64,000 bases of DNA, from contig NZ_JACIET010000001.1 in the NCBI RefSeq assembly GCF_014197015.1, positions 186,001-250,000 of the forward strand, in the 5' to 3' direction. The DNA is from Niveibacterium umoris (GTDB taxonomy: Bacteria; Pseudomonadota; Gammaproteobacteria; Burkholderiales; Rhodocyclaceae). A program made the translations under genes and the position numbers. Position 1 is the first letter of the stretch. Each line of letters opens with the position of its first letter. Of this stretch, positions 4,918-20,847 are shown in pieces. Under the pieces are notes generated by a model. The model did no database searches. It was given only the letters and a program-made list of their open reading frames with translations, and had not been told where the DNA came from.

Positions 4918-5063
4918 CCTGATCAGTTACCCCATCAAAATCACGCGTGGTAGGGATTTCGCTGAGGCGGTTCTTCTGCCAAGTCCCTTCATAACCTGCG
5001 TCTTCAACCTGTTGCACTGTCAGGATCAGATTGCGATCAACATCCAACGCGTTTCGACGCGGG

Positions 5064-5366
5064 CTAATCTGAAGACTGCTTGGAGCGCGCCATCGCGTTG
5101 AGCATCATCTCATCGCCCAGTTTGTCGCCGGCCATCAGGACGCCAAAGAGGCGTTCCCTTCCGTTGGCTTGGCACACGAAGTAGAACTCGACGGCTTCTG
5201 TGATGCGGCCGGCGGCGCGGGTGCGATCGTAGAAGGCCACCAGGGCGTCACGCAGTGCTTGCGTCTCTGGCGAGCTCGCAATCTCTTGTGCCGCGAAGCC
5301 GGCGCACGGGTTAAGGCCATCCGCCACAACAAGGCTCACGTCGATCTCACATTTTTCATTCGTCAC
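5064..5366 (-). CDS. small hypothetical protein (100 aa)
   Basis: I do not recognise this protein. It has no signal peptide or membrane segment. It is a soluble mixed helix/strand sequence with two Cys (6 and 21), a region EFYFVCQANGRERLFGVLM that could form paired strands, and a charged helical middle. The start is GTG at 5366. It is the last gene of the minus-strand run that includes the GGDEF-SIR2-OGFr gene, 117 bases downstream of that gene's stop. Coding status is moderately supported by length and composition only. Confidence 0.5.
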   Translation of the reverse strand: MTNEKCEIDVSLVVADGLNPCAGFAAQEIASSPETQALRDALVAFYDRTRAAGRITEAVEFYFVCQANGRERLFGVLMAGDKLGDEMMLNAMARSKQSSD

Positions 5367-5483
5367 CGTGGGGCTTGCTTTGCTTGCTCTCGGATAGGGT
5401 GTCCGCAGGTATGGATAGGGTAGCGATACCGTATTGACGCCCCCGGTGCGCGATCGTCTCTGCGTTTCCGCGCTACATCATCG

Positions 5484-8462
5484 CTAAGCACCCTCAGCCA
5501 TCGCTGCATTCTTCCAGTGCCATAGCGCGACCGTCGCATCGACGTAACGGTGGTTCGGCAACTCCTGTTCCATGAAGCGCACGACGGCGCTCGCTTCCGC
5601 TTTCAGCCCGACCAGGGATAGCGACTCAATCATCCGCGAGATGCGGTAGTCGTGATCGCCGCTGCGGTTGGCCCACCAGTCGAAGCGGTGCTCCCAGTTG
5701 CCGGCTTTGCACACTTCGCCTTCCACCCATTCGAGTCCAAGCACGGCCAGAGTTCGCGCAAACGAGCGGCGCATTGCATCGATGACCGCGGCGTCCTGCG
5801 CGAAGATCGCGAAGTCTTCCGGCGTCGGTGCCGGGCCCAAGGGGCAATTGCGCCCCTTTCGTGGCAGCGGAAACTGCCAGCCGGCCAGATCCGGTGCAAC
5901 CGCGTAATCAACATCCGACATCTCGATCATGCGCTGCAGGGTTCGGCCCGCATGATCCTTGCCACAGCCGGCGAGGAAGGCGTGCGCGGCGGCGCCGTCC
6001 GGGCTCAGTTGCACGTCGGAAGAGACTGGGTCCGCCTTTTGCGCGAGGCGTTCTATCAGTCGGCGCACCACATGCAGCGATCCCCCGAGCACGCATTCGT
6101 CCACCAGATCCATGCTCGATTGCGGGCCGGAACCGAGCATCACGATCGTCGCGCCACGGACCCGCGCCTTTTCGATCAGGGACCGCGTCGGGGAAAGCGT
6201 CAGATCACTCTCGAGCACCAGGACCAGATCGGCGCGCTTCGCCCGCAGTTCCGCTTCATAGAACGCGCCGAACTCGAGCCCTTCGTTCAGCAAGGTGATC
6301 GCCGGTCGGCGCAGGGGCGAGTGCGCGCGGCATTGGGGGCAAACGTCTGCTTCAGCGCCCAGCGGCGCTGCACAATGACCGCAGGCATCCTTGAACAAGG
6401 AACCAAACATTTCGATCGGCGCCGGAATGCCTGCACGCTGAAGCCACTCGTCCGTACGCTCGGTGATGAGCGTGGGGGAGGGCAGCGCGCGATAGAGTGT
6501 GGCGACTTCATTGAACAAGGCCGGCACCGGCTGCTTCTCAAGTTCCTCGCGCAGTCGCTTCCAGTACGCGAGAAAGCTGGTGGGCTGCGTTCGCAGCGCT
6601 GATGCATCGGCGAATCGCTGGCGGTCGGCCGCCCGCCACGCGGCGAAGTTCTCGCCGCTCGCCAGACCATTCTGGCTCAGGGCGTAGCCAGAGCCCACCA
6701 GCACGGTTACCGTCTTGGCGCGCTGCAGATGACGCACGACGCGCTCGACCTGGATCGGAGAGACCGCTTCCTCGTCGCGATCGCGGTAGACCCCGTACAG
6801 ATGCTTGCGTGCGCGCTTACGCCGGTACATGTCTTCGTCCGCACGCGCGAGGAAACTCGCGACGGTGTCGTCCCGCTGCACTTCGGCAACGCCGATCGAC
6901 AGGCTCACCCGCAGGCCGCTCTTTACTCCCGCCCAGTCAAAGCTTTTGACGTCGGCTTCGATCCGGTCGCAGATCAAGCGCGCGACATCATCGGTGGTGC
7001 CACGCAAGAGGATCGCAAATTCGTCGCCACCGATGCGGGCCGCCAGATCGCGTTCGCGTACGTTGGCACGCAGCACCGCGCCGACCTGCTTGAGCACGAG
7101 GTCTCCCACCTCATGCAAGAACTGGTCGTTGATCTGCTTGAAGCGGTCCAGGTCGATCAATGCAACGGAGAGCGGCTCGCCTGCGTCACGGCCCTGTGCC
7201 CGCCATTCTTCAATGCGGTCAGCAAAGCGACGTTTGTTGGCAACGCCGGTCAGGGCGTCTTCATAGGCCAGTTTCTCAAGTTCCAGCCGGTTGGCCCGCA
7301 GCTCGCGATTGGCATCGGCGTTGGCACGCGCTTCGATCTGATCCGTCGTGAAGCGCCGGCGGTCTCCAAGGTCGCGACTCAAGCGCTGGTGTTCAAGTTG
7401 GCTGAGTTCGAGCATCACTTCGATCGCGGACTCTCTGGCATTGAGTGCCAGCAGCGCCGATAAGGCCGCGCGGCGCGCGAGAACGCCGAGTGCTTCGCTT
7501 TCCATGTTCGTGGCCGCAATGCACGCATTCGACAGATGCAGAGAAATCGCCTCGGTCTTGCGGGCCAAAAGGGCCCGCTCAATGCCGATCAATCCGGCCA
7601 GGATCTGGCCCAAGCCTTCGATACGCGCACTGCCCATTGCGCTCAGCGCATCCGGCAACGGGTCGTGCGCCGAAGCTTTGGCGGCGTCCCCCGCGGCGTG
7701 CAGCGCGCGGGCGAAGCAATTCATCAGGGCAAGGGAGACCTGTTGCCCGGGGAAAACGCACGCGCCTCGCGCTTGCGGTGGCGATTCCGTGTCGGCGCTG
7801 TGGCGGAAGCCATCGATACTCATCGCCCCTGGGTGAGAGGCACGGCCCGCGTTGACCCATTCGCAGTAGTCAATCCAGACATTGAGCTCCGAGAGTTCGC
7901 CCGGCATTTCAGTGGCCGCGAAGGGGGCCTCGTGCGCGGTGAGCCGCGCGAGCGTGCGTCGCGCCATCGCTGTGTTGGCGTTCCACAGGTAGGCGTTGGC
8001 GAGTGCAATCTCTGCCCGAAGTGTCCAGACGCCAGGGTCGAACCGCGCAGCCAGTTCGGAGGCCAACAACGCGAGTTCCACTGACTCGACCGGGCGTCCC
8101 ATGCGCGCGCCCGCCAGCGCTTGCGCGGCGAGGGCGCTGATCTCGGTAGCAAGGTCGCGCGCTTCACGTGCCGCTTCCACGGCAAGGCCTGCCGCATCGT
8201 AGGCGCGTCTGAGGCGTCCGAGCGCCAGGTCAAGCATGGACTGCAGGAACGCCATGCTGGCGCTGTCCTTGGCGGTCTGACTCCCGGACGGCTCTGCCCG
8301 CCAGCGCTGAAGGCAAGACTCCACTTCGACGAACTGGCCCGTCGTCAGCAGATGCTCGATATGCGGTGCGAAGGCTTGTTGGTCAGGGGTTCCGATGGGC
8401 GTATGGGTGTTGTCGTTGGCGGGAGGCGTGACAGTCATGGTCAAAGTGGCGCAGGTCGACAT
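5484..8462 (-). CDS. multidomain signalling protein: TPR-like region, GGDEF diguanylate cyclase, SIR2-like zinc domain, OGFr-like C-terminus
   Basis: 992 residues, no signal peptide, probably cytoplasmic. Residues 1-390 are all-helical repeats like the TPR regions that precede many GGDEF domains. A coiled stretch leads into YEDALTGVANKRRF and an intact GGDEF (478-482), with an inhibitory-site RERD five residues before it, so active c-di-GMP synthesis is expected. Residues 575-810 match the sirtuin layout: GSGYALS (590-596), TERTD (667-671), a Cys4 zinc ribbon (694, 697, 708, 711) and a Rossmann-like tail ADLVLVLESDLTLSPT. The catalytic His of the ELHG motif is Phe686, and GTS is ESD (751-753), so deacetylase activity is doubtful. 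Residues 857-970 (GWQFPLP, HDYRISRMIESL) resemble the opioid growth factor receptor domain. The start could also be ATG 8438. I know of no standard family with this architecture. Confidence 0.82.
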   Translation of the reverse strand: MSTCATLTMTVTPPANDNTHTPIGTPDQQAFAPHIEHLLTTGQFVEVESCLQRWRAEPSGSQTAKDSASMAFLQSMLDLALGRLRRAYDAAGLAVEAAREARDLATEISALAAQALAGARMGRPVESVELALLASELAARFDPGVWTLRAEIALANAYLWNANTAMARRTLARLTAHEAPFAATEMPGELSELNVWIDYCEWVNAGRASHPGAMSIDGFRHSADTESPPQARGACVFPGQQVSLALMNCFARALHAAGDAAKASAHDPLPDALSAMGSARIEGLGQILAGLIGIERALLARKTEAISLHLSNACIAATNMESEALGVLARRAALSALLALNARESAIEVMLELSQLEHQRLSRDLGDRRRFTTDQIEARANADANRELRANRLELEKLAYEDALTGVANKRRFADRIEEWRAQGRDAGEPLSVALIDLDRFKQINDQFLHEVGDLVLKQVGAVLRANVRERDLAARIGGDEFAILLRGTTDDVARLICDRIEADVKSFDWAGVKSGLRVSLSIGVAEVQRDDTVASFLARADEDMYRRKRARKHLYGVYRDRDEEAVSPIQVERVVRHLQRAKTVTVLVGSGYALSQNGLASGENFAAWRAADRQRFADASALRTQPTSFLAYWKRLREELEKQPVPALFNEVATLYRALPSPTLITERTDEWLQRAGIPAPIEMFGSLFKDACGHCAAPLGAEADVCPQCRAHSPLRRPAITLLNEGLEFGAFYEAELRAKRADLVLVLESDLTLSPTRSLIEKARVRGATIVMLGSGPQSSMDLVDECVLGGSLHVVRRLIERLAQKADPVSSDVQLSPDGAAAHAFLAGCGKDHAGRTLQRMIEMSDVDYAVAPDLAGWQFPLPRKGRNCPLGPAPTPEDFAIFAQDAAVIDAMRRSFARTLAVLGLEWVEGEVCKAGNWEHRFDWWANRSGDHDYRISRMIESLSLVGLKAEASAVVRFMEQELPNHRYVDATVALWHWKNAAMAEGA

Positions 8463-8597
8463 AAAAAGGGGATTGCGCAGTCATCCGCACCCGATGCGCA
8501 GCACGCGTGCGCGACGGAACGGGGGAGGGCGGCATCAGATTGCGCGGCATGCACGAAATTACGGCCGCTTGAGCGCACACTTGAGGTGACTGCCTGA

Positions 8598-9506
8598 TCA
8601 GGCGTCTGTTTCGTTGGCGATGCCATAGAGCACCTGCCCGGTCGGGCCGGCGCTGACTGCGCCTTCGCAATGCCCCGCCTGGTCGTCGAAGAAGAAGTCT
8701 GGTTCGAACGCCTTGAGGAAAGGGCCCTTGGGCAGACCGCCGAGAAAGCAGGCCTCATCGACCTCGATGCCCCAGTGCAGCAGGGTGCGGATCGCGCGCT
8801 CATGCGCTGGGGCGCTGCGGGCGGTGACCAGTGCGGTACGAATCTGCACGGTGTTTTCGCGCGCACGCGACTGCAAGCCATGCAGCGCGGCGAGGAAGGG
8901 TTTGAAGGGCCCCGCCGGCAGCGGCTCGTTGATGCGGATCACCTCGTGCTCGACAAAGCGCGCCAGGCTCTCACCCTTGAATACCCGCTCGGCCTGGTCG
9001 CTGAAGAGCACCGCGTCACCGTCGAAGGCGATGCGGATCTCGTCCGGGTTGCGCGCCGCATCGGCGGCGGAGGCGGGATAGACCTGGGCGGCCGGATAGC
9101 CAGCGAGCAAGGCTGCACGCACGTCCTGCGGATTGGCCGAGAGGAACAGCGAGGCATTGAGCGGCGCTAGGTAGCGGTGCGGCGAGCGCCCGCGGGTGAA
9201 GATGCCGCGTTCTATCGACAGCCCGTAGTGTTTGGCGGCGCGGAAGATGCGCAGGCCGCTGACTGGGTCGTTGCGCGACGCGATCACTACCTCCACCGGC
9301 TGTGTCGCCGCGCTGTTCAGACGCAGCAGCTTCTGCACCAGCGGATACGCGACCCCGGTCGGCGGGGGATCGTCGAGGCGTTCGAGCTGCAAGGCCCGAT
9401 AGGCGCCATCGTCACCCGTTTCAAAGACCGCGTTCTCTGATTCCAGGTCGAAGAGCGCGCGCGACGAAATGGCAACGACGAGTTTTCCATCAAGGGTCGG
9501 GGACAT
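8598..9506 (-). CDS. 5'-nucleotidase, cytosolic NT5C1-like family
   Basis: 302 residues resembling the cytosolic 5'-nucleotidase I family (the bacterial 5_nucleotid group), which dephosphorylate AMP and related nucleoside monophosphates. The HAD-like core shows IAFDGDAVLFSD in the middle, VIASRNDP and ALVTARSAPAHERA, and near the end DFFFDDQ. No signal peptide. It lies 135 bases upstream of the GGDEF-SIR2-OGFr gene on the same strand. Shared nucleotide or NAD-related metabolism with that protein is inference. Confidence 0.85.
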   Translation of the reverse strand: MSPTLDGKLVVAISSRALFDLESENAVFETGDDGAYRALQLERLDDPPPTGVAYPLVQKLLRLNSAATQPVEVVIASRNDPVSGLRIFRAAKHYGLSIERGIFTRGRSPHRYLAPLNASLFLSANPQDVRAALLAGYPAAQVYPASAADAARNPDEIRIAFDGDAVLFSDQAERVFKGESLARFVEHEVIRINEPLPAGPFKPFLAALHGLQSRARENTVQIRTALVTARSAPAHERAIRTLLHWGIEVDEACFLGGLPKGPFLKAFEPDFFFDDQAGHCEGAVSAGPTGQVLYGIANETDA

Positions 9507-9540
9507 CGCTGCGCCTCTCAGTTCGTGTTCGCTTGATCCG

Positions 9541-10014
9541 TCATCGCCACGGCATCGCCCGCAGGCGTCGCCAGCCCTCGGGGATCCAGAAGAGCGCGGG
9601 CAACGCGAGCACCAGGCACAGCGCTTCGGTGCCTTCCCACGACAACGCGCCTTGCAGCGGATTGGCGTCGGTCAGTGGCCACCATGGCTGGATGTCGTGA
9701 TGCACGATACCGTCGAGCAGCAGGTGGCTTAGCGTACCGGCCAAGGCCCCGGCGAGCGCCGAGCGGGCGGAGATGCGGATGCCCAATGCCCGTTCCGGCC
9801 ATCGTTTGAGGGCGACACAGATCAGCGTGATCAGCAAGGCGCCGGCCAGGGTATGCGAATAACCATGCAGCACGCTCGCGCCACGTAGCATGCCGATACC
9901 CGGTTCCAGGTCGATCAGGATCTGAGCGCAGGTGAAGCTTGCAAGGCTCATGCGCGGGCCTGCCACGCGCTTGAGCGTAACGCCGGGGCCAAGGTGGAAG
10001 GGCGTGAAAGGCAT
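9541..10014 (-). CDS. membrane-bound metal-dependent hydrolase (YdjM/DUF457-like)
   Basis: 157 residues with about four hydrophobic helices. Conserved polar residues are typical of the YdjM/DUF457 inner-membrane group: FTPFHLGPG at the N-terminus, DLEPG, HGYSHTLAG and HLLLDGIVHHD. The repeated His/Asp residues are consistent with a metal site, but the substrate of the family is not settled. The ATG at 10014 fits. The stop is 34 bases before the nucleotidase start, which implies co-transcription. Confidence 0.75.
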   Translation of the reverse strand: MPFTPFHLGPGVTLKRVAGPRMSLASFTCAQILIDLEPGIGMLRGASVLHGYSHTLAGALLITLICVALKRWPERALGIRISARSALAGALAGTLSHLLLDGIVHHDIQPWWPLTDANPLQGALSWEGTEALCLVLALPALFWIPEGWRRLRAMPWR

Positions 10015-10062
10015 CGCTGTCTTCGGCGGGCGTTCGGTGATGAAAGTCGGGTGTCCAGGCGA

Positions 10063-10620
10063 TCAGGGCGTCCAGTCCCAGGCGAGTCTAGTCCAGTCCA
10101 GCGCGTCGATCTGCGTGAGCACCAAGGGCTCGGTCGGAACACCGAAGGCGTCCTGGAACCACACGGCCACAAGGGATGAGTAACACTCCCCCGGGTCACG
10201 TGCGACCTCGGACGATTCGAACACCCCGATGCAGGTGACAAAGCCGACGCGTTGCCAGCGTTCGCTACTCCCGTCGCTTCGTGTGACCTCGCCCACGAAA
10301 CGCTGAGGCGTCAGCAACACAGGCGTTCCGAAATGGGGAGGTAACCGGCCGCGCGCGCTGCGCAGGGCTTCCTTGCCGCGATATTCGATTTCATCCCAGA
10401 ACTGACCGGGGAGGCCACACAGCATGCCATCGTAAGTACCGAACTGAATCAGCTTCGTCAGCGCGATCACACGCCCATCGGCAAGCGTGCGCGTCCAGCG
10501 CTGATGCGTCAGTGGGTGACCTTTCGTGCGGCCGGTATCGATGACCGGCGCATTGGTGCTGCAGCGCTTGGCCTGTATGTCGAACATCTCGCGTTCCGCT
10601 TCGTTCAGATCGCCGTGCAT
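10063..10620 (-). CDS. hypothetical protein (185 aa)
   Basis: I do not recognise a family. I chose the ATG at 10620 because a GGAGA ribosome-binding site lies about eight bases upstream. A longer frame to 10695 would overlap the preceding gene. The protein is soluble, Trp/Arg-rich and ends WTRLAWDWTP; it has no signal peptide or obvious catalytic motif. It lies between two other minus-strand genes with short gaps (37 and 48 bases), so it is probably part of one transcript. Confidence 0.65.
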   Translation of the reverse strand: MHGDLNEAEREMFDIQAKRCSTNAPVIDTGRTKGHPLTHQRWTRTLADGRVIALTKLIQFGTYDGMLCGLPGQFWDEIEYRGKEALRSARGRLPPHFGTPVLLTPQRFVGEVTRSDGSSERWQRVGFVTCIGVFESSEVARDPGECYSSLVAVWFQDAFGVPTEPLVLTQIDALDWTRLAWDWTP

Positions 10621-10657
10621 GGACAGTCTCCAGTAGGGACTTCGGGTCGGGGCAGGC

Positions 10658-10921
10658 TCAGAGGGCCTCGTAGAGCTCGCGCAGCGACGCGGCACCGGGG
10701 CGGCAGCGATCCATGAAGGTCACGATCTCAGCAGGGGCAAAGCGGCTGGTCACCAGCGGCAGCACAGCGTCGAACGGCCGGCCTGATGCGCGTGCCCAGC
10801 GCAGCAAGGCTTCCAGCGCGACATCGGCATCGTCAGCGGTGTAGGACGGAGCGCTTGCGCAGGTCGGCAAAGGGGAGGGGTAGGCGGGGCGCGCAGTGGC
10901 GAGCAGGGGTTTGGAGAACAT
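10658..10921 (-). CDS. small hypothetical protein (87 aa)
   Basis: Unrecognised. A Pro/Ala-rich start is followed by a predicted helical region (ADVALEALLRWARASG... to the end). There are two Cys and no clear membrane segment. It would be the first gene of the minus-strand run, with its start 109 bases from the divergent WYL regulator; an internal start is possible. Support is positional and compositional only. Confidence 0.5.
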   Translation of the reverse strand: MFSKPLLATARPAYPSPLPTCASAPSYTADDADVALEALLRWARASGRPFDAVLPLVTSRFAPAEIVTFMDRCRPGAASLRELYEAL

Positions 10922-11030: not shown

Positions 11031-12011
11031 ATGGACCGCACCGAACGCTTCTACAAGATCGAACGCCTGATCGCCGAGCGGCGGGTGGTGACCCGCGACG
11101 AGCTGCTGGCGGAGCTGGAAGTGTCGCTTGCGACCCTCAAGCGCGATCTGGAGTACCTGCGCTCGCGCCTGGAGGCGCCAATCATCTGGGATCGGGACGC
11201 CGGCGGGTATCGCTACGAAACTGACCCGAACACGCCATCCTTCGAACTGCCCGGGATGTGGTTCTCGGCGGCCGAGATTCACGCGCTGCTGTCGATGGAG
11301 GCCTTGCTCGAGAGCCTCGGCCCGGGGCTGCTGACGCCCCATGTGCAGCCGCTGCTCACCCGGCTGCGCGCGATGCTCGATCGCGAGGACATTCCGCTCG
11401 AGGCGGTGAACAAGCGCATCCGGGTGATGCGATCGAGCGGCCGGCGTTATGAGCCGCGCCACTTCACCCCGATCGCCCATGCGGTGCTCAAGCGCCAGCG
11501 CCTGATGATCGACCACCGCCATCGCGGGCGCAATGAAGTCACGCGACGGGAGGTGTCGCCCCAGCGCCTGACCTATTACCGCGAGAACTGGTACCTCGAA
11601 GCCTGGTGCCACCTGCGCAATGAGTTGCGCAGCTTCGGGCTCGATGCGATCGAAGGGGTGTGGAGCAGCACCGAGGCCGCGAAGGAAGTCTCCGAGCAGC
11701 GTCTGAAGAAAGTGCTCGATGCCGGTTATGGCATTTTCTCGGGCGAGAAGGTCGAATGGGCTGAACTGCGCTTCGCGCCCGAGCGCGCGCGCTGGGTCAG
11801 CAAGGAAACCTGGCATCCGGACCAGGAGGGCGCGTTCGATGACGCGGGGTACTACACCCTGCGCATTCCCTACAGCGCACCCTTCGAACTCGCGATGGAT
11901 GTGATGCGCCATCTGCCGGAAGTGGAAGTCATCGCCCCCGCTTCCCTGCGCGAAGAAGTCCACGCGAGATTGACCCAAGCGCTGCAAGCCATGCAGACAC
12001 CGCAGCGTTGA
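11031..12011 (+). CDS. WYL-domain transcriptional regulator (YafY-like)
   Basis: 326 residues. An N-terminal DeoR-type winged helix-turn-helix (residues ~1-65, FYKIERLIAERRVVTRDELL then SLATLKRDLEYLR) is followed by a WYL domain (about 150-230, including YYRENWYLEAWC, matching the WYL core) and a C-terminal WCX-like extension. Such proteins bind DNA and sense ligands, often nucleic-acid-like or small nucleotide signals, through the WYL fold. It is divergent from the minus-strand hypothetical/nucleotidase/GGDEF genes, so the 10922-11030 gap may hold a shared control region. That control is inferred. Confidence 0.9.
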   Translation: MDRTERFYKIERLIAERRVVTRDELLAELEVSLATLKRDLEYLRSRLEAPIIWDRDAGGYRYETDPNTPSFELPGMWFSAAEIHALLSMEALLESLGPGLLTPHVQPLLTRLRAMLDREDIPLEAVNKRIRVMRSSGRRYEPRHFTPIAHAVLKRQRLMIDHRHRGRNEVTRREVSPQRLTYYRENWYLEAWCHLRNELRSFGLDAIEGVWSSTEAAKEVSEQRLKKVLDAGYGIFSGEKVEWAELRFAPERARWVSKETWHPDQEGAFDDAGYYTLRIPYSAPFELAMDVMRHLPEVEVIAPASLREEVHARLTQALQAMQTPQR

Positions 12012-12056
12012 CGCAGTCAGACGCCGCAGACCCGATATACACGCGCAGGAGCCCCC

Positions 12057-12392
12057 ATGGCCGACGTGATGAACCGCGACAACCTCTACGCCGCCCCGCG
12101 TGCCGCGCTGCACGAGGACCGACTGTCACCGCGCCACTGGCTGGTGGAGTGGGGATGCGCGGCCGTTCGCGCCGTGCTCGATCTTGCGATCCTGCTGCTG
12201 ATGCTGCTCGCTCTGACAGACGTATTCGATCTGCTGCAGGGCGAACCGCGCGCAACCTGGATCGCCCCGGCGGCGTTCGGTGCCGGATTGGTCGTGGCAG
12301 TTCTCGTTCGCAGGCTGTTCGTTACGACAGATGACGACACGCCCGTGCGAGGTCGTTGGCGCGCGCGGCAATGCGCGCGTCGCACGCGATGA
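12057..12392 (+). CDS. hypothetical membrane protein (111 aa)
   Basis: No family recognised. Two hydrophobic helices are visible: residues ~38-57 (VLDLAILLLMLLALTDVF) and ~68-86. An AGGAG ribosome-binding site sits just upstream of ATG 12057. The stop overlaps the next start as ATGA (12389-12392), so the two genes are translationally coupled. They lie 45 bases behind the WYL regulator and may be co-transcribed with it. Confidence 0.7.
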   Translation: MADVMNRDNLYAAPRAALHEDRLSPRHWLVEWGCAAVRAVLDLAILLLMLLALTDVFDLLQGEPRATWIAPAAFGAGLVVAVLVRRLFVTTDDDTPVRGRWRARQCARRTR

Positions 12393-12811
12393 TGCCGGCG
12401 GTGAGGCAACTGCTGGAACTGCTCGCCCCCGGCGAATGGCGCCGGCCGTGGAAACTTGCCACGTTCGCTGTGGGCATGGCATGGCTGCTCTGGGGCGCGC
12501 TGACACTCGAGATCGGGGATTGGGATGTCGGCGTGTCGATTCTGATGGGCGCCTTCACCTACCTGCTATCGCCCATGGCTGCGCGTATCCTGATGCGACG
12601 TCAGTGGCGCTGGCTACCGCTGAGTCTGCTCGCCTGGTGGTGGTGCGTCGACGGCGTGTACATGGCCTGGCATCTGTCGATGGGCAACCCGATCTACCGC
12701 GAGGCAAACGCCTACGCGTCGACGTGTCTGTTCTGGCTGTGCGGGTTTATCTGGTCGCCGCGCGCGGCGCTGGTCGAAGTCTTGCACAACCGTCGAAGCG
12801 TCGGGTTCTAA
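12389..12811 (+). CDS. hypothetical multi-pass membrane protein (140 aa)
   Basis: Unrecognised family. I chose ATG 12389 because it forms the ATGA overlap with the preceding stop; a frame open from 12356 is less likely. Four hydrophobic segments are visible (WKLATFAVGMAWLLWGAL, VGVSILMGAFTYLLS, WLPLSLLAWWWCVDGVYMAW, CLFWLCGFIW), and Trp is abundant. Probably an inner-membrane protein that works with its coupled neighbour. Confidence 0.7.
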   Translation: MMPAVRQLLELLAPGEWRRPWKLATFAVGMAWLLWGALTLEIGDWDVGVSILMGAFTYLLSPMAARILMRRQWRWLPLSLLAWWWCVDGVYMAWHLSMGNPIYREANAYASTCLFWLCGFIWSPRAALVEVLHNRRSVGF

Positions 12812-12946
12812 ATCGGCCAAGCGAGCAACGTATTCACCGACATCGTAATGTTGTTCAGTGGCTACGGTCATCATGAGGACGGCAACGGGCCGTCTACGCA
12901 TACTTCGAGGCGCCTTTCTTTTAGACAAGCTGAATGAAGTCTTGGT

Positions 12947-14185
12947 TTATTGGCCAAGCGCAGCGAGGTGTTGTTGTGCTTCAGCGACGTCCTTGCCGAA
13001 TTCCTTCAGGTAGCGTTCTTTCTGTTCGCTTTGCCACTCGACGTTCGCAAAACTGCTCAAGGCGTACTGCGCGCTTGTCAGCACCTTGCCTTCCAGGCGC
13101 GGCATCAGCAGGCGATCGGGGTGGCCTTGCTCGCGCAGCAGGTAGCCATCGACATCGCGCACCTGCAGCGGGAAGGTCGGTTTGCTGTCGTGGATCAGCT
13201 TCCCGAACACGGTCAGCGTGACCGGCTGGGAGCCCGCCGCCAGTTCGTCGTTGAAGGTGACGAGCGCCAGCGGCGTGCCGCTGGCGTCGTCGACCCGCGC
13301 GTTGATGACATAGCGCCCCGCCTGCTTCACATCGACCGGAACGCGCAGCACCAGCGAACCGTTTTCCTGCGCATCGCGGAAAGGGCCCGCCCATGTGGCC
13401 GGCACCTGCGGCGAATAGACCACGTCAAACAGATGTCGCCCGCTCTTGCCACCTGCCGTGAATGCCACTTCCACCCGGATTGTGCCGTCGAAATCCGCGA
13501 GCGACGTGCCGCTCGGGTCGAGCGTCGCCGACTGTGTGCCATCGCCCGCCTGCGCGTCGCCCGCCTGCCCTTGGTCGTTGAACGCGACCGGCGCGCTGCG
13601 GCTGCCGCCATTCGTCGTCGGGTTCATGCCGATCGCACGCGCCGCCTGTACCGCGACCGGCAGCGGATGTCCATCCTGGTCGTGCGCGGCGATCGTGAAC
13701 AGCACCGATTCGCCGCTGGCCATGAAGACCCGGCTTTGGCTGGTGACGACTTCGACCGAGGTGTCGGCCTCGTCACTGCCGTTGTTCAGGGGACGCGCTT
13801 CGATCACCGGCCGGTTGGGGTAGAGCTGGTCGGCGTGCTCGCTCGCCGGGCGGGAATTGAACGGGTATTCGCTGGCCTTGCGATAGCTCACCAGCGTCGC
13901 GCGCGCGCGTGCCAGTCGCTCTGCCCACAGCGCACGCTCGGCCTCGATGCCTTGCGCGGTCGCAGCCCCCGCGCTGTCTGCAGGCCGCGCCGTCAGAAAC
14001 GCGGTGCCACCCGCAGCCCCTGCGGACGTTGCGGCGCGCACGGTGCCGGCGCTGTCGGCGAGTTTCGCGGCGACATCGGGCCAGATCAGCCAGCCGACGC
14101 CGGCGAGGCCGACCAGCGCAAGCGATACCGGCAAGGCCCAGCGGCGGCGGTCTGGCTTGCCGCCCCCCGGATCGTCAGCGCGCAT
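12947..14185 (-). CDS. membrane-anchored protein with Ig-like domains, partner of the adjacent secreted hydrolase
   Basis: 412 residues. One N-terminal transmembrane helix (about 16-34, LPVSLALVGLAGVGWLIW) anchors a large periplasmic part. A helix with YRKASEYPFNSRP leads to beta-rich segments (TSQSRVFMASGESVLFTIAA; RYVINARVDDASGTPLALV; PLQVRDVDGYLLRE) that look like two Ig-like domains, then a charged C-terminal helix. The start overlaps the upstream hydrolase stop by 11 bases, so the genes are coupled. The arrangement recalls lipase with membrane-bound foldase, but the sequence does not look like Lif. Exact family uncertain. Confidence 0.68.
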   Translation of the reverse strand: MRADDPGGGKPDRRRWALPVSLALVGLAGVGWLIWPDVAAKLADSAGTVRAATSAGAAGGTAFLTARPADSAGAATAQGIEAERALWAERLARARATLVSYRKASEYPFNSRPASEHADQLYPNRPVIEARPLNNGSDEADTSVEVVTSQSRVFMASGESVLFTIAAHDQDGHPLPVAVQAARAIGMNPTTNGGSRSAPVAFNDQGQAGDAQAGDGTQSATLDPSGTSLADFDGTIRVEVAFTAGGKSGRHLFDVVYSPQVPATWAGPFRDAQENGSLVLRVPVDVKQAGRYVINARVDDASGTPLALVTFNDELAAGSQPVTLTVFGKLIHDSKPTFPLQVRDVDGYLLREQGHPDRLLMPRLEGKVLTSAQYALSSFANVEWQSEQKERYLKEFGKDVAEAQQHLAALGQ

Positions 14186-15065
14186 TGTTGACGACGTTGG
14201 TACGCACGACCGAGACGATGCCGCCCCACGCGCCGTTGGTGTAGTGGTTGTAGGCCTCGCCGTCGTCGCGGAAGCTCACCGAGTGGTAGCTCCACTTGGT
14301 GCGGCCACCCTCGTTCGCGGCAGTACCCAGCGTCAGGTCATTGCAGAACCAGTCCGACGGGTTGCAGAACGATGCGCCCGCGCTGCCCGAGACGCCGCCG
14401 GTCGAGTGGTAGGCGACCACCTCGTCATCCTGACCCGGCAGGATGCCCGAGTACAGCGTGCCCTTGGCGCCGGCGTACATGTAGAACCAGACGCCCTGCG
14501 TGGCGTTGTGGTTGTAGAGCGCACGGGCGGTGGTGGTTTTCAGGTCCTGCGTCAGCACGTCCGACACCGCCCACGAGCCAACATCGGCCAGTTCAGAGCC
14601 ACCGCCGGCGCCCGAGGCGACGTTCACCCACTTGATGTTCCAGCCGGTCTGGGTGGTGCCGTCGGCGTTGCTGCATTGCCCGGACGCGTTCGGCTGCGGC
14701 GTTTTCTTGTAGCGGGTCGAACTGCCGTAGTTCGCCATCGTGTAACCCATCATCAGGTCGCCGGCGCTATGTACGGCCACATAGCACCAGTTGTTGCCGG
14801 TACAGAAGCAGTCCAGGGCGTTGCGGACGAGGTAGTTCTGGTCGGCGATATGGCTTTTGCCATCCCAGTTCACGGCCTTCTTGTTAACGCCGGCGGCGGT
14901 GCTCGCCGGGCCCCAGTAGGTGAAGGAATCGTAGTTGCCGATTTGCCCGCCGCCATTGCGGCCGTTGATCCACAGCGTGAAGTTGTCGGCCAGGGCCGGC
15001 AGCGCCAGCAAGGCGAGGGCGGTGGCAAGGAGGGCGGCAAGCGTTCTGCGATGCGTGTGCGACAT
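14175..15065 (-). CDS. secreted alpha/beta-hydrolase-like protein
   Basis: 296 residues from ATG 15065, which has GGAGA upstream; the frame extends further but without support. A clear Sec signal peptide ends at ALPALA/DN (residue ~27). Several Cys suggest disulfides (CFC...C near 86-94, and two Cys in FCNPSDWFC). The nucleophile elbow is VHSAGD with Ser100. A candidate Asp is in GQDDEVVAYHS and a candidate His in EAYNHY, which give a plausible triad. The substrate is unknown; a lipase or peptidase-like activity is possible. The stop overlaps the gene for a membrane-anchored Ig-like partner. Confidence 0.72.
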   Translation of the reverse strand: MSHTHRRTLAALLATALALLALPALADNFTLWINGRNGGGQIGNYDSFTYWGPASTAAGVNKKAVNWDGKSHIADQNYLVRNALDCFCTGNNWCYVAVHSAGDLMMGYTMANYGSSTRYKKTPQPNASGQCSNADGTTQTGWNIKWVNVASGAGGGSELADVGSWAVSDVLTQDLKTTTARALYNHNATQGVWFYMYAGAKGTLYSGILPGQDDEVVAYHSTGGVSGSAGASFCNPSDWFCNDLTLGTAANEGGRTKWSYHSVSFRDDGEAYNHYTNGAWGGIVSVVRTNVVNNAR

Positions 15066-15189
15066 GGTGCGGTCTCCGTGGATGAGTGACACGATGCGAT
15101 GCATGTCGGGCCGTGATCCCTCCCTCGTTGCGGTAGCCCGAGGTCGCACCCGGTTCGAAGCCCTGTCCGGGGAGATGCCTGAAGGAGGT

Positions 15190-15213
15190 GTTCCCCTTTG
15201 CCAGCCGGGGAAC
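15190..15213. repeat. inverted repeat in divergent intergenic region
   Basis: GTTCCCC (15190-15196) and GGGGAAC (15207-15213) form a perfect 7-bp inverted repeat, preceded by a strong Shine-Dalgarno-like AAGGAGGTG (15182-15190). It lies between the divergent hydrolase and MFS genes (15066-15431) and could be an operator or a hairpin. Confidence 0.45.
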
Positions 15214-15412
15214 GCGCGGACTATAGCCGCCGTATCACGGGGCACAATGGCCCCTGTGGCGGTGCTGCCAGCGCACAAAATGCCCATACCGCCACGTATG
15301 GCGAAATGACAGCGGCAATGCGGCTCGGTGGCTTGTCGATACTGGCGGCCGCGGCAGTTTTGGGGTGTTCGTGGGCGCTGCAGCACGGGCATCGTCAAGG
15401 GGACGAAGTGCT

Positions 15413-15433
15413 ACGACGGTACAATTCCGTCGT
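15413..15433. repeat. inverted repeat at the MFS transporter start
   Basis: ACGACGG (15413-15419) and CCGTCGT (15427-15433) flank TACAATT. The loop contains a -10-like TACAAT, and the right arm overlaps the probable GTG start at 15432. This is the layout of a repressor operator or a translation-blocking hairpin. Confidence 0.45.
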
Positions 15434-16607
15434 GCGCTACCTTCCGCTGCCCGCAAGATTTCCCCCGCAACTCATTGCGCTCATCGGCGTCATGCTGTTC
15501 GGGCATATTGCTGTCGCGGGCGGACGTGTCACGGCATCGCTGTTCCTGCTGCGCCACGGTTACGGGGAAGCGGCGGTCGGGGTATTGATTGCCCTTTACA
15601 GCGTCTTGTCGGTCGCCTTCGGTATGCACTTCGGCCGCTGGAGCGACCGTTACGGGCCGCAGCCGGTGATCCGCGGCGGGCTTGCAGCGATCCTGCTCGG
15701 CATCCTGTTGCCGGCCGCCTGGCCGGCCTTGCCCGCGATGATGGTCGGTGGGGTGCTGTGCGGCACGGGCATCACGATCGTCTCGGTCGCGATCCAGCAC
15801 GCCGTCGGCAACCTGCCGGTGGCCTCGCCGACCCAGCGCGTCGCGCTATTTGCCTGGCTCACCCTGGGCCATTCGACCTCTTCGGTGATCGGTCCCTTTA
15901 TCGCCGGGACGGTGATCGATACTGCCGGTTTTCGTGCCGCGTTCGCCGTCCTCTGCGGCGGGACGCTGCTGGCTTTGCTGCTGAGCACCCAGTTGAGGGG
16001 CGATGCGGTTGCGGCCGATCCGCAAGCCGCCACAAGTACAACGAAGGCTGGCTGGCGCGGCCTGTTGCAAAGCCCGACCCTGCGCCGTGTGTACCTGCTC
16101 ACCACGATCAATGCCATCGCCTGGGATGCCTTCACCTTCTTTGGCCCGGTGCTTGGCCATCGCGCCGCGCTGTCGGCGACCGCCATCGGTACCGTGATGT
16201 CGGCCTTCGCACTCGGCACGCTGGCGATTCGGCTGGTGGTGTCGGCGGCGGGGCATCGCTTCAGCGAGTGGCGCATGCTCGCCGCAGCGCTGGCGCTCGA
16301 AGCGCTGGTGTGGAGCGCATTCACGGTCGCCCGCGGCGCCTCGGCGCTGATGGCGCTGGCCTTCCTGCTCGGGTGTGGGGTTGGCTGCGGGCAACCGAAC
16401 GTGCTTTCACTGCTTCATCGCCACGCGCCGCAGGGCCGGGCGGGCGAGGCGATCGGTCTGCGGTCCCTGCTCGGCAACGTTTCCGGGCTCGGGGTGCCAT
16501 TGCTGTTCTCGGCAACTGTTGCGCTGGCGGGCGTTTGGCCCGTGTGTGCTGCGATTGCGTTGGCGGCTGGCGTCGCGTCGGTGGTCGGCGCGCAAACAAG
16601 CGACTGA
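15432..16607 (+). CDS. MFS transporter
   Basis: About 391 residues from GTG 15432 (VRYLPLPARFPP), which gives a normal MFS length and N-terminus. Upstream in-frame starts (ATG 15306; TTG 15198 behind AAGGAGGTG) would add an untypical N-terminal stretch, so the start is uncertain. Twelve hydrophobic segments are visible, with the loop 2-3 signature GRWSDRYGPQPVIRGG. It belongs to the drug/sugar-efflux type of major facilitator; no substrate can be assigned. The inverted repeat at the start may regulate it. Confidence 0.85.
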   Translation: MRYLPLPARFPPQLIALIGVMLFGHIAVAGGRVTASLFLLRHGYGEAAVGVLIALYSVLSVAFGMHFGRWSDRYGPQPVIRGGLAAILLGILLPAAWPALPAMMVGGVLCGTGITIVSVAIQHAVGNLPVASPTQRVALFAWLTLGHSTSSVIGPFIAGTVIDTAGFRAAFAVLCGGTLLALLLSTQLRGDAVAADPQAATSTTKAGWRGLLQSPTLRRVYLLTTINAIAWDAFTFFGPVLGHRAALSATAIGTVMSAFALGTLAIRLVVSAAGHRFSEWRMLAAALALEALVWSAFTVARGASALMALAFLLGCGVGCGQPNVLSLLHRHAPQGRAGEAIGLRSLLGNVSGLGVPLLFSATVALAGVWPVCAAIALAAGVASVVGAQTSD

Positions 16608-16702
16608 CGCGCACACGGCGGCTGGCAGTCGGTATCCTTGCGAGACCAAGAATATTGACCTCGCCACGGGAATCAGCAGAAAGCTGGAATAGCGAGGCAG
16701 AC

Positions 16703-17824
16703 ATGAAAACAATGCAATGGCTGTGGCCCCTGCGGGTCGCGACGATGGGCGCGGTCATGGTGGCCGGGTGTGGGGGCGGAGCCGCGGGCACTGCGCCAGC
16801 GACCCCGGTGCCGGATATCGCGAGCTACCCGCCGGTGGCCAACAACGCTGCACCTGGCGCATCGGCGCGGGCGGTAGCGGCAGCCGCGTCGATCGGGCGC
16901 GGCGTGAACTTCGGCAACATGCTCGAAGCCCCGACCGAAGGCGCCTGGGGGATCAGCGTCACCGACGACTTCATCGACAAGGCCTGGGCGGCAGGTTTCC
17001 GCTCGGTACGCTTGCCGGTGCGCTGGAGCAACCACGCGAGTGCCGAAGCCCCGTACACGATCGACGCTGCCTTCATGGCGCGTGTCGAGTCGGTGGTGGA
17101 CAAGTTGCTCGCCAAGGGCTTCGTCGTCGTACTCAACATGCATCACTACCGCCAGCTCGACGGGGATGCGCTCGATTCGGGTGAACTCGCGGTGGCCAGC
17201 GCCGCGCTCGACGTGCGCTTCGTGATGCTGTGGGAGCAGATTGCGGCGCGTTTCCAGACTCGCAGCGAGCAATTACTGCTGGAGCTCTACAACGAGCCGC
17301 ACGGCCGGCTCAATGGCGAGCCTTGGAACGTGCTGGCGGCGCGGGCGCTTGGCGTGGTGCGCAAGTCCAACCCGCAGCGGGTGGTGGTGATCGGCCCGAC
17401 GCACTGGAACAACGCGAGCGATCTGGCGCAGTTGAAAATGCCGAACGACGCCAACCTGATCGCGACGGTGCACAACTACGAACCCTTCGACTTCACGCAT
17501 CAGGGTGCCGAGTGGATCAGCCCGCCCAAACCCACCGGCGTGACCTGTTGCAGCAGTGGGCAACTGTCGGCGATGACCTTGCCGCTGGATACCGCCAGCG
17601 CGTGGTCGGCGCGAACGCGTTACCCGGTCTTCGTCGGTGAGTTCGGCGCCTACAGCAAGGCCGACGAGGCCTCACGGATCCGCTTCAATCGCGCGATGCG
17701 GACGGCGATGGAGGCGCGCGGCATGAGCTGGACTTACTGGGAGTTCGCCTCGGGATTCGGCGTCTACGACCCGGTCGCGTTGAGCTTCAAGCAAGCCCTG
17801 CTCGATTCGCTGCTGGGGAGTTAG
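16703..17824 (+). CDS. glycoside hydrolase family 5 lipoprotein (endoglucanase-like)
   Basis: 373 residues from ATG 16703, with GAGG upstream. The N-terminus carries a lipoprotein signal with lipobox VAGC (Cys23), followed by a Pro/Ala-rich linker. The GH5 barrel follows: RGVNFGNMLEAP, RLPVRW, NMHHY, the acid/base glutamate in YNEPHG (Glu198), HNYEPF and the nucleophile in VGEFGAYS (Glu313). Expected activity is retaining hydrolysis of beta-1,4-glucans or related polymers at the cell surface. It follows the MFS gene by 95 bases. Nothing appears truncated. Confidence 0.9.
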   Translation: MKTMQWLWPLRVATMGAVMVAGCGGGAAGTAPATPVPDIASYPPVANNAAPGASARAVAAAASIGRGVNFGNMLEAPTEGAWGISVTDDFIDKAWAAGFRSVRLPVRWSNHASAEAPYTIDAAFMARVESVVDKLLAKGFVVVLNMHHYRQLDGDALDSGELAVASAALDVRFVMLWEQIAARFQTRSEQLLLELYNEPHGRLNGEPWNVLAARALGVVRKSNPQRVVVIGPTHWNNASDLAQLKMPNDANLIATVHNYEPFDFTHQGAEWISPPKPTGVTCCSSGQLSAMTLPLDTASAWSARTRYPVFVGEFGAYSKADEASRIRFNRAMRTAMEARGMSWTYWEFASGFGVYDPVALSFKQALLDSLLGS

Positions 17825-17832
17825 TCCCGACA

Positions 17833-17868
17833 GGGGGGGCCGGGGGGCGGGGAGGGGGTCGGTATAAT
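17833..17868 (+). promoter_or_regulatory. recQ promoter with G-quadruplex-forming tract
   Basis: Four G runs of 7, 6, 4 and 5 bases (17833-17839, 17842-17847, 17849-17852, 17854-17858) are separated by loops of only 1-2 bases. A perfect -10 box TATAAT (17863-17868) follows four bases later. No -35 box is visible where the G tract lies. The ATG is seven bases after the -10, so the mRNA may be leaderless. Confidence 0.6.
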
Positions 17869-17875
17869 CAGGGCG

Positions 17876-19702
17876 ATGAATTCGACCCCAGTCGCCAGCG
17901 CTCCGCCGGCCCTCGACACCCTGCGCCATGTCTTCGGCTACCCGGCTTTCCGCGGGCAGCAGCAGGCGATTGTCGAGCATGTCGCGGGCGGCGGCGACGC
18001 GCTGGTGCTGATGCCGACCGGCGGCGGCAAGTCGCTGTGCTACCAGATCCCCTCGCTGTTGCGCGACGGCTGCGGCATCGTTGTGTCGCCGCTGATCGCG
18101 CTGATGCAGGATCAGGTCAGCGCGCTCAAGCTGCTCGGCGTGCGGGCTGCCTTCCTCAATTCCTCGCTGCCGCTCGAACATGCCTCGGTGATCGAGCGCG
18201 AACTGCTCGAAGGCGAGCTGGACATGCTCTACGTCGCGCCCGAAAGGCTGATGACGCCGCGCTTCCAGCAACTGCTCGGTCAGGCGCGGATCGCGCTGTT
18301 CGCGATCGACGAAGCGCACTGTGTGTCGCAATGGGGCCACGACTTCCGCCCCGAATACATCCAGCTCTCGGTGCTGCACGAGCGCTTTCCGGACATCCCG
18401 CGCGTCGCGCTGACGGCCACTGCAGACAATGCTACCCGCGCCGAGATCATCGAACGCCTGCAGCTGCAGCACGCCGAGGTCTTCCTCTCCAGTTTCGATC
18501 GGCCGAACATCCGTTACACGGTGGTGGAGAAGGACAACCCGCGCAAGCAGTTGCTGCGCTTCATCCGCAGCACGCACGACGGCGATTCCGGCATCGTATA
18601 TTGCCTGTCGCGCAAGAAGGTCGAAGAGACCGCGAAGTGGCTGCGCAGCGAAGGGCTCAACGCGTATCCGTATCACGCAGGGCTGGATGCGGAAACGCGT
18701 GCGACGCACCAGCACAAGTTCATCCGTGGCGAGGGCGTGATCATGGTGGCGACCGTGGCCTTCGGCATGGGCATCGACAAGCCGGACGTGCGCTTCGTTG
18801 CCCACCTCGATTTGCCCAAGTCGCTCGAGGCCTACTACCAGGAGACCGGCCGCGCGGGGCGCGACAGCCTGCCGAGCAATGCATGGATGGCCTACGGGCT
18901 GCAGGATCTGGTGCTGCAACGCGAGATGATCGAGCAGTCGCAGGCGCCGGATGAAGTGAAGCGGGTCGAGCGGCAGAAGCTCGATGCGCTGCTCGGCTAC
19001 TGCGAGGCGCCGGCCTGTCGTCGCGAGGTGCTGCTGCGCTACTTCGGCGAAGAATCCACCCCCTGCGGCAACTGCGACATGTGCCTGAACCCGCCGCAAA
19101 CCTGGGACGCCAGCGTCGCCGCGCAGCAGGCGCTCTCCACCATCTACCGAAGCGGACAGCGTTATGGCGCCGCCCACCTCATCGATATCCTGCAAGGGCG
19201 TGAAACCCCGAAGGTGATCGAACGCGGGCATCAGCACCTGAGCACCTTCGGCATCGGTAAGACGGTGAGCGATGTGCAGTGGAGCTCGCTCTTGCGCCAG
19301 ATGGTCGCGCAGGGCCTGATCGGCGTGAACGAGCACGGCGGCCTGCTGCTGCTCGAACCTTGCCGGCCGATCTTGCGGGGCGAGGCGAGCTTCATGGCGC
19401 GCAAGGTGCGCGAGGCGACACCCGGTGGCGCCACCAGCGTGCGTCGCGAGATCGAGTTCGCGAGTGACGAAGCGCGCACCCTGTGGGCGGCGCTGCGCCA
19501 GTGCCGGCGCCAACTCGCCGAAGAGAACAACGTCCCCGCCTACATTGTCTTTGGCGATGCCACACTCAAACAGATGCTCGAACGCCGCCCCGCGTCGCTG
19601 GCCGAGATGGCTGAGCTTTCCGGCGTCGGCGACAAGAAACTTGAACGTTACGGCGCCGAGTTCCTTGCTGTGATTCGCGCGCACGAGGTCGAATCATCGT
19701 GA
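17876..19702 (+). CDS. recQ: ATP-dependent DNA helicase RecQ
   Basis: 608 residues, full length. SF2 helicase motifs: [12 protein letters not shown] (Walker A), [17 protein letters not shown] (DEAH and the RecQ aromatic loop), [11 protein letters not shown], and the motif VI region [12 protein letters not shown]. The zinc-binding RQC domain shows Cys residues in CEAPACRRE and CGNCDMC, followed by a winged helix and a C-terminal HRDC domain ([12 protein letters not shown]). It unwinds forks, recombination intermediates and, in many homologues, G-quadruplexes. The stop overlaps the next GTG start by four bases. Confidence 0.97.
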
Positions 19703-20283
19703 CGGTGGAAACCGTGGACCCCGCTCCTGCTTTTCCGTCACTCACGACGCCACGTTTGCGTTTGCGCGAACTGACTCCCGATGACACACCGGAGGTCTTC
19801 GAGATTCATTCGGACGCGGAGGGTATGCGATGGTTCGGCAGTGATCTGCTTACCCGGTCGGAACAGGCGCTTGGTTTGATTGAAACCTTTGCTGCCTGGC
19901 GAAAGATGCCGAATCCAGGCACGCGGTGGGGTATCGAACGAAAGGAGAATGGCCATCTGATTGGAACCTGCGGGCTGTTCAAATGGAATCGTGCCTGGCG
20001 CAGTTGCACGATCGGCTACGAACTTGCGCGCAGTGCATGGGGCGTCGGCTACATGCGCGAGGCGCTGGTCGCGATGCTGCAATGGGGCTTCGACAACATG
20101 GCACTGAACCGAGTCGAAGCCTTGATTCATCCTGAAAATCAGCGCTCGCGCCGGACTGTGGCGCGACTCGGTTTCGCCTTTGAAGGCCGGATGCGCGAAG
20201 CAGGTTTCTGGAACGGCGAGACACAGGATCTTGAACTTCACGCCTTGCTCATGCGTGACTGGCCGCCTGGGCGGTTGGGCTAA
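19699..20283 (+). CDS. GNAT family N-acetyltransferase (RimJ/RimL-like)
   Basis: 194 residues from GTG 19699 in a GTGA overlap with the recQ stop. The RimJ/RimL-type start [13 protein letters not shown] is followed by GTCGLFKWN, the acetyl-CoA loop region [18 protein letters not shown], and [17 protein letters not shown]. It probably acetylates the N-terminal amine of a ribosomal or other protein; the target is unknown. Co-expression with recQ is suggested by the overlap. Confidence 0.88.
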
Positions 20284-20299
20284 GGAAACGAGGGCAAAA

Positions 20300-20776
20300 A
20301 TGGAATGGCTGTGGATTCTGGCGATCGGGCTAATGGTGATCGGCCTTGCGGGCATCGTGCTGCCAGTGTTGCCAGGCACGCCTCTGCTGTTCGGCGGCAT
20401 GCTGCTGGGGGCCTGGATCGATCACTTCGAGAAGGTGGGCGTGATCGCGGTGGTGGTGCTGGGTGTGCTGGCGGCACTCGCGTGGGCGATTGATTTCGTC
20501 GCCGGCATCCTTGGCACGAAGCTGGTCGGCGCGAGCGGCTATGCGATGGCGGGGGCCGGCATCGGCGGCGTGATCGGGCTGTTCGGCGGCATTCCGGGGC
20601 TGATCTTCGGGCCGGTGATCGGTGCGGCGGCGGGCGAACTCTATGCCCGTCGCAATGCGGGGCAGGCCGCGCGGGCGGGGGTTGCCGCGGGCCTGGGCTT
20701 CGTGCTGGCGATGGCGGCCAAGTTGGGTATCTCGGTTGCAATGCTTGCAGTATTCGTTTTTGCCTACTTCGTCTGA
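20300..20776 (+). CDS. DUF456 family membrane protein
   Basis: 158 residues from ATG 20300 with a purine-rich AGGAAACGAGGG site upstream. Typical DUF456 features are GLAGIVLPVLPGTPLLFGG and a Gly-rich helix pair (GAGIGGVIGLFGGIPGLIFG), with about four membrane helices. The function of the family is not established. It lies 17 bases downstream of the acetyltransferase, probably in the recQ transcript. Confidence 0.88.
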   Translation: MEWLWILAIGLMVIGLAGIVLPVLPGTPLLFGGMLLGAWIDHFEKVGVIAVVVLGVLAALAWAIDFVAGILGTKLVGASGYAMAGAGIGGVIGLFGGIPGLIFGPVIGAAAGELYARRNAGQAARAGVAAGLGFVLAMAAKLGISVAMLAVFVFAYFV

Positions 20777-20847
20777 GACGGCCGCCCCGGCTATGATGAG
20801 GAAACACCCGTGACGTTCTAGCTCCGCTTCTGGCAGGAGGCCGTGCC

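Follow-up and report, generated by a model that had tools for sequence, protein, structure and literature searches.

Three described protein families meet in the gene considered here, an open reading frame (ORF) for a 992 amino acid (aa) protein in a 64,000 nt stretch of Niveibacterium umoris DNA (NZ_JACIET010000001.1 positions 186,001 to 250,000, forward strand; the whole stretch is called the window). With the GGDEF diguanylate cyclases (PF00990) the protein shares the signature motifs, the inhibitory site (I-site) and the placement of GGDEF after a helical region, and it differs from them by a C-terminal module made of a SIR2-like and an opioid growth factor receptor (OGFr)-like domain. With the sirtuins (PF02146) it shares a fold-length match, a Cys4 ribbon, Gly-x-Gly and Asp671, and it departs from them by the replacement of His with Phe, Gln-Asn with Glu-Arg, GTS with ESD and INP with LGS, as well as by being embedded within a cyclase. 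Its likeness to OGFr_N (PF04664; phage family phrog_38436) consists of an end-to-end alignment, the W/F/P/R/W residues and a predicted fold, and the copy in the fusion is without the E..H...Q and S of the family signature.

In common with viral nicotinamide adenine dinucleotide (NAD+)/ADP-ribose conflict systems, the subject of a review (PMC9503650), SIR2, PARP, NADAR and macro families appear here as neighbours or fusion partners of OGFr; the terms OGFr, opioid and GGDEF have 0 occurrences in the main text of that review. A literature search found no paper combining GGDEF with 'opioid growth factor receptor', in agreement with an earlier reading of this DNA (the initial annotation), which knew of no named family with this combination of parts, and none with 'OGFr domain' or 'pseudosirtuin'. 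The papers found to combine GGDEF, SIR2 and 'domain architecture' deal with different topics, judged by their titles; among the matches listed, those pairing 'opioid growth factor receptor' with ADP-ribos are by title medical and animal work, and the same term with phage and genome returned one clam genome paper. No described biochemical role for a microbial OGFr was found in the literature searched. Within the known class of diguanylate cyclases, the fusion is a new and rare architecture.

The reading we put forward, to which we give slightly less than an even chance, is of a soluble diguanylate cyclase whose C-terminal half consists of two pseudo-domains and which would be regulated by a ligand in the former NAD pocket. 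The GGDEF domain would make cyclic di-GMP (c-di-GMP) under product inhibition; the sirtuin fold would still bind a small molecule without turning it over, the first candidates being NAD+, ADP-ribose and acyl-ADP-ribose; binding, passed on through the helical segments flanking GGDEF, would set cyclase activity; and the helical N-terminus would act as a further input or as a dimerisation part.

Domain architecture of the fusion protein

The ORF is uninterrupted from its ATG start, and a congener, G120, carries a full-length orthologue (L052:7733-10711) that is also a single 992-aa ORF, is 69% identical to the window protein and has the same three Pfam domains, GGDEF, SIR2 and OGFr_N. Because of this orthologue the frame is taken as real, and both a frameshift and a mis-joined pair of genes, which the initial annotation had set down as a way for its claim to fail, are ruled out. 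Three of the four parts which that annotation had joined in one protein (TPR, GGDEF, SIR2 and OGFr) thus lie in one frame, and the fourth, TPR, was not confirmed. Residues 1-387 of the window protein have no Pfam match, TPR included, even at E = 10; TPR scores at best E = 0.65 on the G120 orthologue, taken as a whole protein, and a two-sequence profile of the N-terminal region had no usable match among PDB sequences. A single-sequence AlphaFold model of residues 1-400 is all-helical and poor (pLDDT 48), and on this low-confidence prediction the N-terminus is called helical here, not TPR; its counterpart in G120 is 56% identical. The window protein shows no stretch resembling a membrane helix, its highest 19-residue Kyte-Doolittle mean being 1.36 where the threshold for such a helix is usually ~1.6.

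The GGDEF part looks active, judged from its motifs, as the initial annotation had proposed. PF00990 matches at E = 1.7e-36, above its curated cut-off, with the GGDEF motif at residue 478; LTGVAN, DLDRFKQIND, GGDEF, SIGV and ADEDMYRRK occur in both orthologues, save one residue of ADEDMYRRK, and RERD stands just ahead of GGDEF in both. An I-site is an RxxD motif five residues ahead of GGDEF, and the spacing of RERD is what we take to be the usual one, the roles of the other GGDEF motifs being likewise presumed. Elsewhere in the genome of N. umoris (64 places match the fusion protein in all, 63 of them only around GGDEF) these matches are read as a large c-di-GMP network.

The SIR2 assignment was upheld by profile, and the catalytic residues proved to be lost. 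Pfam SIR2 (PF02146) matches residues 610-757 at E = 5.7e-7 (30.1 bits against a curated cut-off of 24; 24.4 bits in G120), an NCBIfam NAD-dependent deacylase model covers the whole domain at E = 1.3e-20 with 73.5 bits, far under its own cut-off of 243, and the best PDB sequence match is the Sir2 protein of entry 1ma3 (E = 1.5e-14). We aligned the domain with 36 other SIR2 loci, 28 found by similarity to the fusion protein and 8 by PF02146, including the canonical sirtuin of the same genome (L095). Both orthologues have Phe where all 36 have the catalytic His, Arg where all 36 have the Asn of QNxD, and Glu where 33 have Gln and 3 have Ser; the Asp of QNxD is kept everywhere. Alignment with the three best PDB sirtuin matches shows the same substitutions in the fusion, with the active-site stretch free of gaps. 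By these residues the SIR2 part is almost certainly a pseudo-enzyme, dead as a sirtuin, and NAD consumption by it is very unlikely because the catalytic His and the Gln-Asn pair are lost; with a separate canonical sirtuin in the genome, the copy in the fusion was free to change. The initial annotation had coupled c-di-GMP synthesis to NAD or nucleotide state through this domain, a proposal that would have to give up NAD use and of which at most a sensing of NAD or ADP-ribose may still hold. Its Cys4 ribbon inside a sirtuin-like layout is present in both orthologues, all four Cys being kept in G120; Pfam zinc-ribbon scores are below threshold in both, and zinc binding is a prediction.

Could the SIR2 part still be an enzyme with altered chemistry (an NADase or an ADP-ribosyl transferase), with OGFr acting on the product? 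The retained Asp671, Gly-x-Gly and zinc Cys would fit this, as would the adjoining OGFr and SIR2 genes found elsewhere (below), but with both His and Asn gone from each orthologue, no PADLOC match and the OGFr signature lost, it is extremely unlikely.

Conservation within the SIR2 domain points instead to the former pocket. Pseudo-pocket positions, based on canonical sirtuins and selected with the alignment already in view, are identical between the orthologues at 19 of 20 sites, compared with 143 of the 217 remaining positions of the domain (hypergeometric P = 0.004); for the SIR2 motif blocks the figures are 55 of 63 against 107 of 174 elsewhere (P = 7e-5), and the four zinc-ribbon Cys alone, 4 of 4, are not significant (P = 0.22). 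A constant pocket without its chemistry suggests a repurposed binding site. This conclusion must be tempered by several considerations: two sequences are thin evidence for pocket conservation, with positions partly picked afterwards; a pseudo-enzyme may equally be a protein-binding surface; the gene neighbourhood offers no direct connection in function; and the 98% identity of the OGFr core is no measure of constraint because it lies in a recombination tract (below).

The second of these points can be extended to the whole C-terminal half, the pseudo-domains then being platforms that localise the cyclase by binding, for example, acylated or ADP-ribosylated partners, with no small ligand. Pseudo-enzymes often act as scaffolds, the helical N-terminus and the OGFr part (whose nearest PDB shapes are helical-repeat proteins at a background-range Z of 6.6) could bind proteins, and local signalling through partners is plausible in a genome where 63 of the 64 matches are GGDEF-only. 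We nevertheless regard such a platform as rather unlikely, in that conservation concentrates in the former NAD pocket and the substituted residues are themselves kept.

The OGFr-like C-terminus was likewise borne out, with a start at about residue 827, earlier than had been claimed. OGFr_N matches residues 862-967 at E = 1.9e-7 (31.3 bits against a curated cut-off of 22; 30.6 bits in G120), and in an end-to-end alignment the part as a whole (~827-986) is 23-29% identical to 12 further bacterial OGFr proteins. An AlphaFold model, for which the window domain was aligned with 34 viral OGFr proteins, has a pLDDT of 93.4 and a pTM of 0.89, and residues 820-992 are predicted to adopt the OGFr fold. 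The sole Foldseek match of this model in BFVD at E <= 0.001 is a Marseillevirus opioid growth factor receptor (E = 2.2e-5, TM 0.77), a likeness that is not fully independent given the viral OGFr rows in the model's alignment; a fold search of the PDB gave none at E 0.001 or better, and the best VIA-align score (Z 6.6) was to generic helical-repeat proteins, inside the tool's stated background range.

The family signature LExxHDxIQW, as read from our own alignments, is not kept in the fusion. Its E (33 of 34 viral and 12 of 12 bacterial proteins) is A in the window protein, its H (33 of 34, 12 of 12) is P, its Q (34 of 34, 12 of 12) is G, and the S found in 33 of 34 and 12 of 12 is G; at these positions G120 has C, P, G and G. 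The window protein does retain the residues W, F, P, P, W, R, R and W, and an HN pair corresponds to HD or DH depending on the alignment. On the strength of the alignments and the model, the OGFr part is a genuine family member with a degenerate polar signature. The initial annotation was silent on the degeneracy of both C-terminal domains.

Table 1. Features of the fusion gene and its immediate surroundings (window positions)
Feature	Position	Strand	Basis
Whole fusion gene: helical N-terminus, GGDEF, pseudo-SIR2, OGFr-like; 992 aa	5484..8462	(-)	ORF and translation, orthologue
N-terminal region, residues 31-390, predicted helical, no family assigned	7293..8372	(-)	Low-confidence model; G120 counterpart
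GGDEF domain, residues 399-553	6804..7268	(-)	Pfam PF00990; motifs LTGVAN, DLDRFKQIND, GGDEF, SIGV, ADEDMYRRK, RERD
SIR2-like domain, residues 572-808; His to Phe686, Gln-Asn to Glu668-Arg669, GTS to ESD (751-753)	6039..6749	(-)	Pfam, NCBIfam, alignment
Cys4 zinc-ribbon motif, C694-C697...C708-C711	6330..6383	(-)	Sequence; kept in G120
OGFr-like domain, residues 827-986, without the family's E/H/Q/S (A854, P857, G861, G870)	5505..5984	(-)	Pfam, alignments, model, Foldseek
Tract spanning most of the OGFr part, with 91-97% identity to G120 in each 100 bases	5561..5861	.	Base identity profile
Neighbouring 5'-nucleotidase (PF06189), 135 bp upstream, same strand	8598..9506	(-)	Pfam; same order in G120

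Occurrence of the fusion

The initial annotation had proposed counting the genomes that carry the architecture; with a helical N-terminus in place of TPR, these number 2 of 7 in the genus (N. umoris itself and G120) and 2 of 199 in the family, where 49 of the 199 genomes match a SIR2-OGFr query and only these two cover both domains. A match to the N-terminal part was found in 4 of 198 family genomes, two of them weak and crossing stop codons. In the order, 70 of 399 genomes match a SIR2-OGFr profile and only that of N. umoris spans both domains; the order, class and phylum searches covered samples of genomes, and G120 surfaced only in the family and genus searches. Wider scans of genome contigs (twice), viral contigs (once, with the SIR2-OGFr query) and plasmids (twice) did not find the fusion, those of genome and viral contigs being weak negatives, as they rely on exact matches to a small number of short peptide patterns and may omit near relatives.

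Other genomes seen to hold OGFr alone number 12 among the 399 of the order search, 1 among the 360 of the class search and 17 among the 398 of the phylum search. The bacterial loci examined below, 28 from the 30 genomes so found (G691 and G1106 were left out), hold stand-alone copies of ~150-220 aa as far as could be judged. Five longer frames (L043, L044, L291, L294, L297; L276 and L277 hold the L043 and L044 genes again) were considered as further fusions and judged to be read-through of DNA rich in guanine and cytosine (GC). Between the congeners L291 and L297 only the last ~160 residues align, with lower third-position GC ahead of them, and congeners of L043, L044 and L294 have short OGFr frames (L045, 174 aa; L049, 195 aa; L292, 189 aa).

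Divergence from the orthologue and neighbouring genes

Outside the OGFr tract of Table 1, the fusion gene is 42-79% identical to G120 per 100 bases. A second tract, covering window positions 8560-10850, likewise resembles G120 far more closely than does the remainder of the fusion gene. Identity changes sharply at ~8552-8652, 5861 and 5561, one of these boundaries being close to where the OGFr_N match begins. Because the longer matches in the one other stretch compared (11031-23000) are only 70-85% identical to G120, the high-identity tracts were probably exchanged recently; recombination is the probable origin of both, with gene conversion also proposed for 5561-5861. Synonymous divergence (dS) is accordingly uneven, low in the OGFr core (0.27), the 5'-nucleotidase (0.16) and a YdjM-like gene (0.11), and near saturation in the N-terminal (2.1), GGDEF (1.3) and SIR2 (1.1) parts, for which the non-synonymous values (dN) are 0.39, 0.15 and 0.24. 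The resulting dN/dS of ~0.1-0.2, with dS saturated, indicates purifying selection on these three parts, as estimated from this single pair of sequences.

Such constraint bears on whether the protein is a neutral relic, in which a cyclase was joined by accident to decaying fragments and which is now of no use. Its presence in two species only and the absence of signature residues from both C-terminal domains are what a relic might show; we hold this to be very unlikely, since both species keep the whole frame across saturated synonymous divergence at that dN/dS, and conservation is higher in the pseudo-pocket than elsewhere in the SIR2 domain.

Window neighbours with a Pfam match are the 5'-nucleotidase, a sodium:solute symporter, a CBS/DUF294 protein, the YdjM-like gene and a WYL protein; the gene at 10063-10695 has no Pfam match, and a promoter and terminator scan was uninformative. 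In another congener, G072, the 5'-nucleotidase is present and the fusion absent. Beyond the 5'-nucleotidase of G072 (L061:8180-15977) a by-eye reading finds metalloprotease and type I restriction-modification genes.

OGFr genes and NAD/ADP-ribose families

Some other OGFr genes lie near, or are fused with, genes of NAD/ADP-ribose families. On a 299-kb viral contig (L195), OGFr (5001-5552, (+)) ends 3 bp before a SIR2 gene (5555-6511, (+); E = 6e-41) with intact GAGLS, TQNID and HG motifs, and the viral gene L206:4350-5480 (+), on the same contig as L109:2338-3468, encodes NADAR fused to OGFr (PF08719, E = 4e-38; OGFr_N, E = 2e-22). PARP-like genes lie two genes after OGFr on two viral contigs (L215:5864-7138 and L210:5910-7211, both (+)), the former, on the same contig as L101, carrying a WGR domain. 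Seed searches for neighbours covered 36 non-redundant viral loci (from 48, of which 44 had an OGFr gene by profile). Besides the SIR2 gene at 3 bp (1 locus) and the NADAR fusion (1), they found PARP 318 and 352 bp away (2) and 2.3 kb away (1), DUF4326 1.5 and 4.1 kb away, NADAR 4.3 kb away, and RNA ligase 31 bp and 1.9 kb away; a macro-domain seed had no match in these loci.

As a control, 116 near genes (within 1 kb, at least 100 aa) were compared with 118 far genes hand-picked from 244 in the same loci, 25 of 57 and 25 of 45 families being listed and the NADAR-OGFr fusion gene belonging to neither set. Among the matches listed, the near set holds PARP (2), PRPP synthase (2) and SIR2 (1), and the far set nicotinate phosphoribosyltransferase (3), NADAR (1), PARP (1), NUDIX (1) and a SLOG family (1). 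On those matches there is no clear near excess of NAD families and the link of OGFr with NAD is unsupported in viruses; because both sets contain NAD-related families, closeness is not shown beyond the general load of NAD genes.

In bacteria, a SIR2 gene lies within 2 kb of OGFr on the same strand in 2 of 28 loci (G229 and G1037, of different families), and seeds for NADAR, PARP and DUF4326 had no match in these 28 loci. In G229 (L273:6082-8869, (-)) the row is SIR2, an alpha/beta-hydrolase with a sub-threshold macro match at its end, and OGFr; in G1037 (L295:6145-7480, (-)) SIR2 directly precedes an OGFr whose signature is also degenerate (IPW, HES), the pair sitting in a cluster with GmrSD, PP2C and RhuM/Fic genes. 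A gene with a sub-threshold macro domain follows OGFr by 11 bp in G203. Under assumed sirtuin densities, 0.04-0.06 loci would be expected against the 2 seen (P = 0.0009-0.002), and with sirtuins counted in 20 genomes (17 sirtuins) 0.023 (P = 2e-4), these 20 being hand-chosen and including both positives; congeneric genomes are not independent. G229 was noticed before the test, and its removal leaves ~0.022 expected against 1 seen (0.017 expected without G1037); in G1037 the surrounding gene cluster and a second SIR2-matching frame 2.2 kb away inflate the clustering. Taken with the SIR2-OGFr fusion itself, these loci make a sirtuin-OGFr link likely enough to be worth testing, though not established, and OGFr may belong to NAD/ADP-ribose biology. 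More specifically, OGFr might be a sirtuin partner that binds or processes, for example, acyl-ADP-ribose, with the dead pair in the fusion sensing that pathway and c-di-GMP as the output, which would give c-di-GMP signalling a new input; we consider this combination unlikely.

The same observations could be turned towards defence, the dead SIR2-OGFr pair being a decoy for, or detector of, phage NAD/ADP-ribose metabolism or mobile elements, with c-di-GMP as the alarm. OGFr 3 bp before an intact-motif SIR2 on L195, viral OGFr genes whose surroundings include PARP, nicotinate phosphoribosyltransferase and PRPP synthase genes, the patchy presence in the genus (2 of 7), the by-eye type I restriction cluster at the G072 site after the 5'-nucleotidase, and the G1037 pair beside GmrSD and Fic genes are all compatible with such a sensor. 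It is nonetheless a long shot, as the fusion matches 0 PADLOC-DB families at E 0.1 and no effector gene was seen among its Pfam-matched window neighbours.

Implications

If the reading of a ligand-regulated cyclase is right, c-di-GMP signalling gains a sensor built of inactivated NAD/ADP-ribose domains. According to the title of PMC12421817, c-di-GMP can regulate NAD biosynthesis through NadR; the fusion protein would suggest traffic in the opposite direction, from NAD/ADP-ribose state to c-di-GMP. For bacterial and viral OGFr, the sirtuin neighbourhood together with the SIR2-like and NADAR fusions would provide a functional clue.

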